NCBI GenBank assembly: GCA_022616275.1
Contig: JAKEFB010000034.1
Location: forward strand, 1 to 64,000
Source: Chloroflexota bacterium
Lineage (GTDB): Bacteria; Chloroflexota; Anaerolineae; Promineifilales; Promineifilaceae
Length of the DNA: 64,000 nucleotides
Reading direction: 5' to 3'
This document shows positions 34,334 through 43,229 of this stretch, in pieces. Under the pieces are notes generated by a model. It did not search any database. It was given only the letters and a program-made list of their open reading frames with translations, and had not been told where the DNA came from. The first letter of the stretch is position 1. Each line of letters opens with the position of its first letter. The translations under genes and the position numbers were made by a program.

Positions 34334-34365
34334 AGCCCGGCTGGTTGTGCCAGCCGGGCTTTTTT
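34334..34365 (+). terminator. Rho-independent terminator of the bc operon
   Basis: AGCCCGGCTGG pairs with CCAGCCGGGCT around TTGTG and is followed by six T residues. Confidence 0.9.
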
Positions 34366-34390
34366 GTGGACGGTGGAGGAAGGACGTAGC

Positions 34391-35371
34391 CTATCGTCCT
34401 TTCAGGGCGGTGCCACAGTTGCGGCAGAAGCGGTCGCCAGTTTCTACCGGCCGGCCACAGTGGTGGCAAAAGTGGACCACGGCCGGTGATTCGCCAGGGA
34501 CCGCGCCGGCCGCCGGCTTGGATGTAGTTGGCAGAGAGATGGGAGTCACAGTTCGGGTGGCAGCACGAGGCGTAGCACGGTGCGGCCGGGGCTTGAGGGT
34601 TCGTTGAGAGGCCGGCCGCCGGGCCAGGAGCTGCCAGGCCAGGGCTGCCACCACCAGCAGGCCACCGGCCGCGGCCAGAAACAGAGGCCAGTTCAGGCTG
34701 GTCTGGCCGGCAACGGGAGGCGGCGGAGTGGCGTTCTCTTCACCGGCCGCCAGCTGGGAAGCAGCCACGACTTCTTCAGAGAGCTGGGCGCCGGTGACGG
34801 TATAGCGGACTTCCAGGGTATAGGGGGCGCCGGCCGGCAGGGAGACGATGGGCAGATTGTGGTAGCGCAAGGTGTCCTGGCCCACGGTGACGCTTTCGGC
34901 GGCTGGCGTGGTGGCCAGCTCGCTGGCTGCGGCCGGCTGCTGGACGCTGGCGGCCAGCTCGGCCACGGCCGGCCCATCTTGCCAGGCAAAAGTAAAGGTG
35001 CGCTGACCCGCCTCTTCGGTATAGGGCAGGTAATACTCCACCCGGAAGCGGAGATCGGGGGTGGTCAGCGTAAGCTGGCCATTAGTGGTATCGTAGCTGA
35101 CGTCGTCCACCATGTTGTTATCGCCCGTAATGCGGGCAACGGCATTCAAGGTGGCCTCGGCCGGGAAGGGGAGCGTCACCGTGGCCGGTAATGGGGTATC
35201 GGCCGGCAACGTACCGGTTAGCAGCACCAACACCGCCGGCCGGTCGTAGTCCGGCCACAGGTCTACAGCCAGTTGGGCCAGTGTACCGGCCGGCGCCTGG
35301 GCCAGGCCCGGCACAGGGGTGGTCAAGAGGAGCACGGTGACGAGGAGGAATGCTAACGGATAGCGGGGCAT
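34391..35371 (-). CDS. Membrane-anchored extracytoplasmic protein with C-terminal zinc ribbon
   Basis: A 326-aa protein with a signal peptide (residues 1-24, ending GLAQA) and an outer beta-rich domain (LPATVTLPFPAEATLN...VEYYLPY). A Pro/Ala stretch and a single membrane helix (WPLFLAAAGGLLVVAALAWQLLA, about residue 230) follow. A basic cytoplasmic linker leads to a C-terminal zinc ribbon (CHHCGRPVETGDRFCRNCG). I cannot name the outer domain with certainty. The overall build suggests a sensor or assembly protein linking outer and inner faces. The gene on its 5' side also encodes a zinc ribbon, six bases away, so they probably form an operon. Confidence 0.75.
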   Translation of the reverse strand: MPRYPLAFLLVTVLLLTTPVPGLAQAPAGTLAQLAVDLWPDYDRPAVLVLLTGTLPADTPLPATVTLPFPAEATLNAVARITGDNNMVDDVSYDTTNGQLTLTTPDLRFRVEYYLPYTEEAGQRTFTFAWQDGPAVAELAASVQQPAAASELATTPAAESVTVGQDTLRYHNLPIVSLPAGAPYTLEVRYTVTGAQLSEEVVAASQLAAGEENATPPPPVAGQTSLNWPLFLAAAGGLLVVAALAWQLLARRPASQRTLKPRPHRATPRAATRTVTPISLPTTSKPAAGAVPGESPAVVHFCHHCGRPVETGDRFCRNCGTALKGR

Positions 35372-40000: not shown

Positions 40001-42190
40001 ATGCAGAGTATTGAACGGGATTTCCCTATTGAGCCGTTGAGCCAACTCGCCAAACTGGAAAGCTGGCGTAAAGAGATCAACCGGCCGACATACTACGTGC
40101 ATAAATGGTGGGCGCGGCGCCTGGGCTCTGTTTTTCGAGCGATTCTCCTGGGAGCTTTATTGGATGAGTCTGAAGACATCTGGCAGCAGTTTTACTGCCC
40201 GCACAATTTTGAAAACAAAATAATCCTGGATCCGTTTATGGGTGGCGGAACTACCCTGGGCGAGGCGGTGAAGTTGGGGTGCAGGGTAATTGGCAATGAC
40301 ATCAACCCGGTTTCCTGGTACCTGGTGCATTCGGCCTTACAAAGGGTTAACCCGACTGTTTTGAAACGCGCTTTTCGACGGCTGGAGCAAGAGGTAGAGC
40401 CGAAAATTCGTAAGTACTACCGCTCGACCTGGAATGGCGAACCGGCCGATGTTCTGTATGCCTTTTGGGTCAAGCTAATCCGTTGCCCTGGCTGCCAGGG
40501 AGTTAGCCGGCTTTTTCCTAACTGGATTTTTTCCAGTGACGCTTACCCAAAACGGAAACCAAAGGCCCAGACACTTTGCCCCGCATGCGGCCATATTCAC
40601 GTTATTCACTACCAGGCGCAAACAGCCACGTGTCCCAATTGCCGTTACGTTTACAACCCTCAAACCGGCCCAGCCCGGCGCACCACATTTATCTGTGAAT
40701 CTTGTGGCCAGGAACACCCCATTGCCGAAACGTATCGCCTGTCGGATGGCCCGCCTGAGCACCAGCTTTACGCGCTGATGTTGCTCCTGCCGGGCGGCCG
40801 GAAGGTTTACAAGCAGCCAGACACTTCGGACCTGGCGCTGTACGCTCAGGCTGTTACTGATTGGGAACAAGCCCGGCAACAGGGCGCGCTATATCCCGGT
40901 GAAAAGATTCCTCCAGGAGTAAATACAGACCAGGCACGAGGGTATAACTACCATTACTGGCATCAGATGTTCAACCCTCGCCAACTGCTCTGCCTGTCCA
41001 CCTTATTGAAGGGTATTCTAACTGAGTCTGACCAGGCCGTTAAGGAGCAGTTTCTCCTTTTGTTTTCCGGCATTTTAGAATTTAACAATATGTTCTGCTC
41101 TTTCAAGGGTGAAGGGACTGGAGCCGTGCGGCCGCTCTTTTCACACCACATTCTTAAACCTGAGCGGACGCCGCTGGAGAACAACCCCTGGGGAACGTCT
41201 AAAAACAGCGGCTCTTTTGCCACTTTGTTCGAGCGACGTCTTTTGGCGGCGCAAAAGTACGCCAACGAACCATTTGAGCTGGCGCTCACCAGCCAAAATG
41301 GCCACGCTGCCGGACAGAAGGTCTACCACATTAACCACCCTATCTCTGTTCAACCGGGTAAAGCATTTACTGATCTGGCGGCCGGCCGCGCCGAGGCCTT
41401 AATCCTATCGGGTGATTCTGCTTCCCTGCCGCTACCGGATGGCTGCGTTGACGCGGTGATTACCGACCCCCCCTATTTTGATAACGTCCACTATTCAGAG
41501 CTGGCTGACTTCTTTTACGTCTGGCTCAAGCTGGCTCTAGGCGATCAAGTCTCTTATTTTAGTGCTGCCAGCACACGCCACCCGGCCGAAGTGCAGGATA
41601 CGAATGCTAAATCGTTTGAACAAGGACTGGCGGCCGTTTTTGCCGAGTGCCGCCGGGTGCTTAAGCCCGAGGGATTAGTTATCTTTACCTTCCAGCACGC
41701 TCGCGAGGAAGCCTGGTTGGCCTTGATAGGCGCATTGGCCAGGGCCGGCTTACAACTGACGGCCGCCTATCCGATTAAGGCTGAAATGGCAGTCGCTACG
41801 CCTAAAAGCCAGGCCAAAGAGCCGATTAATATTGACATTATTTTTGTCTGCCGGCCGGCCGGGGCCGCTATTAGGCTGGTAAGCGAAACTTCCGTGGACC
41901 AGATATTGGCTAAAACCAGGCAATTGGCTACCCGTTTGTCTGCGGCCGGTATTAAGCTGTCAAAAGGTGATTTATTCGTCATCACTATGAGCCAGTTTGT
42001 CGTGGCGTATGTGCCTGCTGATAGCAAGGGAATAAGCAACACGCTGCTTGATGAACAAATGGCTATTTTGGGTGAGCTACAGTCTGCTCTGGCTCATTTC
42101 TCTGTAGATGACTTGGTAATGGAAAAGGAGCCGTCGCAAATGCGCCAGTTGCGACTGCTAGAAGAAGTACCACCCTATACCGCCTCGTAA
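40001..42190 (+). CDS. Zinc-ribbon DNA methyltransferase (COG1743-like)
   Basis: I start at ATG 40001 (729 aa), the point where family homology begins (FPIEPLSQLAKLESWRKEIN...HKWWARR). The upstream extension is antisense to the amidase gene. The methylase has a SAM motif DPFMGGG (77-83) and catalytic DPPY (489-492), an arrangement of N-terminal motif I and distant C-terminal motif IV. Between them are four CxxC pairs (162/165, 193/196, 211/214, 232/235) that can build two zinc ribbons, probably for DNA binding. This fits COG1743-type adenine or cytosine amino-methylases found in defence islands. Its 3' end overlaps that of a PD-(D/E)XK nuclease on the other strand by 16 bases, suggesting a restriction-modification pair. 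Confidence 0.85.
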   Translation: MQSIERDFPIEPLSQLAKLESWRKEINRPTYYVHKWWARRLGSVFRAILLGALLDESEDIWQQFYCPHNFENKIILDPFMGGGTTLGEAVKLGCRVIGNDINPVSWYLVHSALQRVNPTVLKRAFRRLEQEVEPKIRKYYRSTWNGEPADVLYAFWVKLIRCPGCQGVSRLFPNWIFSSDAYPKRKPKAQTLCPACGHIHVIHYQAQTATCPNCRYVYNPQTGPARRTTFICESCGQEHPIAETYRLSDGPPEHQLYALMLLLPGGRKVYKQPDTSDLALYAQAVTDWEQARQQGALYPGEKIPPGVNTDQARGYNYHYWHQMFNPRQLLCLSTLLKGILTESDQAVKEQFLLLFSGILEFNNMFCSFKGEGTGAVRPLFSHHILKPERTPLENNPWGTSKNSGSFATLFERRLLAAQKYANEPFELALTSQNGHAAGQKVYHINHPISVQPGKAFTDLAAGRAEALILSGDSASLPLPDGCVDAVITDPPYFDNVHYSELADFFYVWLKLALGDQVSYFSAASTRHPAEVQDTNAKSFEQGLAAVFAECRRVLKPEGLVIFTFQHAREEAWLALIGALARAGLQLTAAYPIKAEMAVATPKSQAKEPINIDIIFVCRPAGAAIRLVSETSVDQILAKTRQLATRLSAAGIKLSKGDLFVITMSQFVVAYVPADSKGISNTLLDEQMAILGELQSALAHFSVDDLVMEKEPSQMRQLRLLEEVPPYTAS

Positions 42191-42906
42191 ATGTAAAACG
42201 TCCGCACAATATCGGTTTTCACTTCAATCTTCCTTTTCAGCGAAACCAGACGTAGCTCATCGTTCTGATCCAAAGCAGCATCCTGGGTGACAAATACCGT
42301 TCGATACCGAAAGTCAGGCTCGGTCAATGGATTGGGGAAGCGGTACATTTTGCGGATACGGACAAATGCGTCGCCGTAGCTGCCAAAGTTCCTCTCGGAA
42401 ATGTTAAGATGCCCTTCGGCCAGTTCAAGATCGTTGTTTAAGTAGTCCCCGTCTACCAAAACGAAGGCGACGCCTTGAACGTGCAAATCGTCAACCGGTT
42501 CGTAGAGGGTAAACAGGTAGTAACAGCGCAAGATTGAGTTGTCCGTGACCGCTAGCCCATCCGGCAAGAGATGATTTGGTTTCTTTACCAACCGGCCGCA
42601 AGGTATTCTGCTGTTAAAATCTACGTCGGTCCGGCAGGGTGGATAACGGGGGTCACGGCCGGAACGCACGTTAGCCAGTGCTTTAAGCTCGTACCCTTCA
42701 ATAACTTGCCGGCGCGCCACCAGGTAATCCGGGGTGGAATTTCTCCCCTGTGCCCGCAGGGCATAACCAGCCCCGAGAAGCTGTTCCACAAACCAATCCT
42801 GCAAGAAAAACTCTTTATCTACCGGGCTACGGCGTACCATCGTTGCCTGGTTGACTTCAAAGGAACGAGCGAGCCGCACAAAAATGTCTGGAGCCAGAGT
42901 GGTCAT
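42175..42906 (-). CDS. PD-(D/E)XK-type restriction endonuclease candidate
   Basis: A 243-aa protein. Residues 57-75 contain TPDYL and 13 residues later YELKA, matching PD...ExK (Asp60, Glu73, Lys75) of the PD-(D/E)XK nuclease fold. A possible extra acidic residue is Glu32 in an N-terminal helix. I did not recognise a named REase family, so the label is inference from the motif plus context. It lies tail-to-tail with a DNA methylase (16 bp overlap) and starts within the stop of the ASCH gene (ATGA). Methylase and nuclease convergent with overlapping ends is a common layout of type II systems. The function could be restriction of unmethylated DNA. Confidence 0.65.
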   Translation of the reverse strand: MTTLAPDIFVRLARSFEVNQATMVRRSPVDKEFFLQDWFVEQLLGAGYALRAQGRNSTPDYLVARRQVIEGYELKALANVRSGRDPRYPPCRTDVDFNSRIPCGRLVKKPNHLLPDGLAVTDNSILRCYYLFTLYEPVDDLHVQGVAFVLVDGDYLNNDLELAEGHLNISERNFGSYGDAFVRIRKMYRFPNPLTEPDFRYRTVFVTQDAALDQNDELRLVSLKRKIEVKTDIVRTFYIYEAV

Positions 42907-43229
42907 ACCACCTCCTTTTCAATTTCCAGAGCAACCACACCCAGGGCTTCCTTCTCCAGCGGATAAATGGCCCGGATGCGTTCTAACAATTCGCCGGCCG
43001 GCACGTTGGGAGCAATGGCTGCCGGCTTTTCGTGGGCCAGTAGCTCGGCAAAGGAGGCGTAGCGGCCGATGCGGCGAATGCGGTAGAGGTGCCGGCCGTT
43101 CAGCAGTAGCCGGTCACCAGGCTGTAGGCGAGTGATATTACTGTAGCCAACGCGAACCTCGACGGTCTTGTGGCCGGCCAAGATCTCTTCTAGGTACTCG
43201 TCCTTAATCCACAGCGTCTTCGTTGGCAT
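42903..43229 (-). CDS. ASCH-domain protein
   Basis: A 108-aa protein with the ASCH fold: LWIKDEYLEEILAGHKTVEVRVGYSN, then LQPGDRLLLNG and RRIGRYASFAELL. The GxKxxE motif (GHKTVE) is intact. ASCH proteins are PUA-like and bind RNA or modified nucleic acids. The start ATG 43229 lies five bases after the preceding membrane-protein gene's stop; a longer frame exists, but homology starts here. Its stop overlaps the nuclease start by four bases, so the two are co-expressed. It might recognise a modified base for the nuclease, but that is a hypothesis. Confidence 0.82.
   Translation of the reverse strand: MPTKTLWIKDEYLEEILAGHKTVEVRVGYSNITRLQPGDRLLLNGRHLYRIRRIGRYASFAELLAHEKPAAIAPNVPAGELLERIRAIYPLEKEALGVVALEIEKEVV

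Follow-up and report, generated by a model that had tools for sequence, protein, structure and literature searches.

The window analysed here, a stretch of 64,000 nucleotides from a Chloroflexota bacterium, very probably encodes a two-gene, Type II-like restriction-modification (RM) system, in which a DNA amino-methyltransferase (methylase) and a protein of 243 amino acid residues (aa) are the modification and restriction halves, respectively. The observed basis of this reading is the pairing of the two genes in other genomes, the catalytic motif and modelled fold of the smaller protein, the phyletic spread of the pair, its atypical composition and the lack of a conserved link with the adjoining ASCH-domain gene. 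The genes and their junctions are as follows.

40001..42190, + strand: DNA amino-methyltransferase gene, 729 aa (ATG at 40001, stop codon ending at 42190), the putative modification half.
42175..42906, - strand: candidate PD-(D/E)XK restriction endonuclease gene, 243 aa, tail-to-tail with the methylase gene.
42175..42190: overlap of 16 base pairs (bp) between the 3′ ends of the methylase and nuclease genes.
42903..42906, - strand: ATGA, formed by the ASCH stop codon (TGA) and the nuclease start codon (ATG), with AAGGAGG, part of the ASCH gene, immediately before it.
42903..43229, - strand: ASCH-domain gene, 108 aa (Pfam ASCH, 8.6e-8), judged to be a resident neighbour.

In the methylase the DPF motif comes first (DPFMGGG at residue 77), followed by a cysteine-rich insert with four CxxC pairs (162, 193, 211 and 232) and lastly DPPY (489), while the nuclease carries PD at residues 59-60, E73 and K75. 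These motifs, the convergent arrangement with its 16-bp overlap and the start of the nuclease gene within the ASCH stop codon had been listed in a preliminary description, made from the DNA letters alone, and all are present.

Nuclease loci were collected with profile A3, which gave 82 loci, two viral and 80 from genomes, the latter being the best 80 of 178 and found by motif. A homologous methylase lies within 150 bp of the nuclease in 79 of the 82, and the two genes are neighbours on all four plasmids, which bears out the suggestion in the preliminary description that they form an RM pair. The genes are on the same strand, with the methylase upstream or downstream; the exceptions are L012, where they diverge, and L088, where they converge as in the window. 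The three loci without such a methylase are L026, L050 and the viral L090. At L026 the nuclease gene stops about 150 bp short of the contig end (judged by length, the contig is the same as G305:C14), and genome G305 carries a 44% identical methylase on a different contig, at its edge. A C5-cytosine methylase replaces the usual amino-methylase at L050 (7941-9823), overlapping the nuclease by 4 bp, and L013 is an in-frame fusion at a contig end. The loci are partly redundant, with L128, L131 and L147 apparently repeating L084, L026 and L066, respectively. At L043 (7989-9756) two tandem nuclease genes stand ahead of one methylase.

The association is also seen from the methylase side. At least 56 methylase matches were found in the class at E 1e-60, and loci were obtained for 30 of these. 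Seven of the eight methylases that are at least 44% identical to that of the window adjoin a nuclease and the eighth (L220, from G305) is at a contig edge, while none of the 21 that are 41% identical or less has a nuclease within about 1.5 kb; most of L214-L221 repeat genomes of the 397-genome class search described below. Profile scans of viral contigs gave the two nuclease loci and four methylase loci, one of the latter on the same contig, and three of the four viral methylases have a nuclease. No other gene family occurs near the pair in more than six loci, based on the clustering of 731 neighbouring open reading frames (ORFs) from 87 loci. Five loci (L005, L012, L033, L043 and L089) have in common two adjacent genes close to the pair; the annotation of L005 gives these as a DUF262 protein and a HEPN-like nuclease.

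The best structural matches of both nuclease models are PD-(D/E)XK enzymes of the EcoRV/HincII/SwaI fold, so that the fold check proposed for the 243-aa protein returned restriction enzymes. R.SwaI matches the nuclease structurally at 9% identity, with no sequence match to R.SwaI in the PDB; three sequence searches found no PDB endonuclease even at E 10, and a further PDB search gave a single match, to a methyltransferase, at E 0.16. A PD...ExK string is by itself weak evidence; here it is backed by the modelled fold and by D60, E73 and K75, which are invariant in all 49 aligned nuclease sequences, including that of the window. No model in Pfam, NCBIfam or PADLOC names the family (PHROGs was outside the scope). 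PF22380 was considered and set aside as a stray match, as it hit one of the 49 sequences (4.3e-5) and none of the other 48.

In the proposed system the methylase would mark adenine, or cytosine at N4, in a short sequence of the host DNA; the DPP motif is compatible with either N6-adenine or N4-cytosine modification. The nuclease, probably a dimer, would cut the same sequence when it is unmarked, such that incoming phage or plasmid DNA would be cleaved and the host thereby defended. SwaI, HincII and EcoRV are blunt cutters, and by analogy we would guess that the window nuclease also leaves blunt ends. The nuclease gene would take its likely ribosome-binding site from the 3′ end of the ASCH gene and, because of the ATGA overlap, the two genes are likely to be translationally coupled in the window.

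Several observations weigh against a working RM system or a strict pairing. Divergent members are under-represented among the genome loci, because these are the best of a larger set and were found by motif. The viral nuclease at L090 (7788-8684, on a 166-kb contig) is without a methylase homologue in the 16 kb examined, the viral methylase at L243 (48% identical, inside or near the paired clade) is without a nuclease, and no nuclease is annotated beside the Streptomyces methylase L101, which is inside that clade. Foldseek found nothing at E 0.001 in the PDB with the window nuclease model, and likewise nothing at E 0.001 among viral models. The window nuclease keeps 45 of the 83 columns conserved in 75 relatives, compared with 130 of 137 for its methylase, and it is without the C-terminal region found in the main clade, for which reasons it could be altered or inactive.

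A scan for avoided sites is to be counted on the same side. Palindromes were compared with maximal-order Markov expectations in 362 kb of the host genome (G000; the window and 20 other stretches), 400 kb of G318, which has the pair, 400 kb of G024, in which no nuclease was found, and 1.05 Mb of nuclease loci. In the host stretches GTCGAC occurs 0 times against 63 expected and GTGCAC 0 times against 28; both are also low in G318 (7 of 62 and 2 of 30, respectively), and GAGCTC is among several palindromes that G318 and G024 are likewise short of. No recognition site can therefore be assigned by avoidance. CGGCCG is over-represented in the host (1750 against 1395 expected).

The outlying sequence of the window nuclease bears on a rival explanation, namely that the pair is a remnant in which a working methylase adjoins a decaying nuclease. 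In a comparison of 75 pairs the nuclease of the window is far more diverged than its methylase, with a mean residual of -20.5 identity points where the next most extreme is -6.0 (this set, to which plasmid loci and G029 belong, is limited to loci with a methylase and to proteins of at least 220 aa for the nuclease and 600 aa for the methylase, and excludes L013). The missing C-terminal region would fit decay, as would the broken relatives L036 and L066, each in two pieces (L147, the apparent repeat of L066, has an internal stop). The frame of the window nuclease is nevertheless open and D30, E32, D60, E73, K75, D96 and N98 are kept, while residues outside the catalytic core, such as PCRT, DFNS, PCG and FPNPLT, are common to this nuclease and that of L127. 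In the tree it also branches deeply and alone, outside the main clade, though this branch is long and its placement unsure. Decay of the nuclease thus appears unlikely, and the two-gene RM system is the better account of the pair.

In the nuclease tree the branch of the window lies between the main clade and L127; the nucleases of the window, L127 and L090 are on long branches and their exact placements are unsure. No second copy of the window's nuclease lineage was encountered in the searches made. A further clade, comprising L129, L130, L145 and L146, shares the ExK, DxN and PxG blocks, and the viral nucleases of L245 and L246 were assigned to it by profile score. The corresponding methylases are in three places of the methylase tree, with L129 alone, L130 together with L145, and L146 inside another group. 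At L245 the methylase is 55% identical to that of the window and is tail-to-tail with its nuclease, as in the window, while the nuclease scores best with the profile of the L129/L130/L145/L146 clade. The five divergent rows force four changes on the starred branches of the methylase tree, close to the mean of 4.9 obtained with shuffled labels, whereas one change suffices for them in the nuclease tree. The methylase tree was built quickly and its branch support is limited to the Shimodaira-Hasegawa-like approximate likelihood ratio test (SH-aLRT); its outgroup branches are long, and ten of its rows are odd in composition.

The two trees disagree, in that deeply diverged nucleases stand beside methylases of one clade. 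From these comparisons the simplest reading would seem to be that nucleases have been exchanged around a conserved methylase; it is only moderately probable because of the long branches, the quick methylase tree and the few divergent rows. Such exchange would need a shared target, which suggests that the exchanged partners recognise the same DNA sequence. As a tentative model, possible but not favoured, the DUF1156-type methylase would be fixed and the nuclease lineages (the main clade, the window, L127 and L129/L130/L145/L146) swapped like cartridges, with the C5-methylase of L050 as a replacement of the other partner. If this is true, bacteria of different phyla would have kept a single recognition sequence.

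The preliminary description had gone further and proposed a three-gene module including the ASCH protein, which by this account would read modified bases and steer or gate the nuclease. The ATGA overlap and the AAGGAGG inside the ASCH gene are what speaks for it in the window, and PMC7641849 and PMC12839542 discuss ASCH/PUA domains as readers beside RM and BREX-related systems. Conservation of the gene order in related genomes had been set as a test beforehand, and the three genes were not neighbours there. No relative of the window ASCH protein was found at E 10 among 17,324 ORFs of 101 nuclease loci, at least three of which repeat others, other ASCH families being outside this search; a profile (with wrong fragments in rows L105 and L106) and, independently of it, a single-sequence search were used. 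Orthologues of the ASCH protein are present in 9 of 60 genomes, including the host, and the stretches fetched around all eight non-host orthologues contain neither methylase nor nuclease. In G031 (L105), from another genus of the family, an ASCH domain is near homologues of the window genes 44810, 46556 and 34391, again without the pair; the first two are read as an enoyl-CoA hydratase and a CAAX-type protease, labels that do not come from a family search. The ASCH domain of G031 (L105:7025-8422) is in frame with a region read from its translation as 2-hydroxyacid-dehydrogenase-like.

The composition is also unlike that of the pair. The G+C content at third codon positions is 0.58 for the methylase and the nuclease, which places them third and fourth from the bottom among 51 ORFs with a median of 0.75; it is 0.79-0.84 in three genes of the flanks and takes an intermediate value, 0.68-0.69, in the short ASCH gene. 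A three-gene module is on these grounds very improbable, and the two-gene claim survives. The ASCH gene is judged to be a resident neighbour rather than a conserved component of the restriction system. Because it is not conserved with the pair, because G031 keeps a similar neighbourhood without the pair and because the compositions differ, it is probable that horizontal transfer brought the pair, as a unit, to a place beside this resident gene. The ASCH protein matches PF0469 (PDB 1xne) at 1.9e-12, and no restriction link for PF0469 emerged here. Elsewhere in the window, ARAGORN predicts a tRNA-Glu at 34365-34460 (+ strand) that overlaps the end of a 326-aa ORF on the - strand.

The methylase, labelled COG1743-like in the preliminary description, matches Pfam N6_N4_Mtase (8.6e-12) and DUF1156 (3.5e-5). 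With the NCBIfam equivalog for DUF1156 anti-phage proteins, NF042963, it scores 140.3 bits against a cut-off of 1000, and is therefore a relative and not a member of that family. Among 75 relatives DPF and DPP are each kept in all 75 and the Y of DPPY in 22, while C193 and C196 are kept in all 75 and all eight cysteines in 52. It is 39-50% identical to the methylases that adjoin nuclease relatives on the four plasmids. No DUF499 or helicase domain was found by Pfam in the five proteins around and including the methylase (methylase, nuclease, ASCH protein, amidase and the product of the 43234 gene, which has no Pfam family). It is hardly credible that the methylase is a leftover of a larger, BREX-related system (DUF499/helicase) and that the nuclease, unrelated to it, adjoins by chance: the DUF1156 match and some plasmid homologues beside DUF499 and SNF2 genes are compatible with it, but the same nuclease family adjoins the same methylase clade across phyla and five methylases from DUF499 loci are outside the branch that holds that of the window. 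The host genome has two further methylase homologues, one apparently in two pieces with a 443-aa ORF between them on the other strand (L136:10138-14316) and one in L137.

Of 99 relatives searched, 2 have a nuclease match, and of 397 genomes from the class 11 do; both counts include the host, and one of the 11 matches (G398) is weak, with an internal stop and no profile match; profile A5 detected the nuclease in 5 of 400 genomes of the phylum. Neither tblastn of phages nor a single-sequence scan of viral contigs gave a nuclease relative.

Type II RM systems are old knowledge, and the window resembles those with EcoRV/HincII/SwaI-fold endonucleases in its two-gene layout of endonuclease and amino-methylase and in the PD-(D/E)XK core; it differs in having no sequence match to a PDB endonuclease and a methylase of the DUF1156 type. 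The COG1743/DUF1156 systems described in PMC7641849 and PMC12839542 are larger. The BREX-related DUF1156 systems (PMC12839542) have a homologous methylase in common with the window, whereas the window differs in the missing DUF499 and helicase, in the low NF042963 score and in the place of its methylase in the tree. The COG1743-DUF499-SWI2/SNF2-nuclease-EVE system (PMC7641849) is alike in combining a COG1743 methylase with a nearby protein of the PUA/ASCH superfamily, but the window has a small stand-alone nuclease and an ASCH gene that is not conserved with it. Neither this nuclease family nor its pairing with a DUF1156-type methylase was found in the literature or libraries searched, REBASE, whose predicted entries may already include the pair, being outside that scope.

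The nuclease represents a putative restriction enzyme family that is spread over many phyla and for which Pfam, NCBIfam and PADLOC offer no naming model, and surveys relying on those libraries would therefore miss it. The pair possibly offers a new restriction specificity, and it is a small system in which one could test directly whether restriction enzymes are exchanged while the methylase stays fixed.
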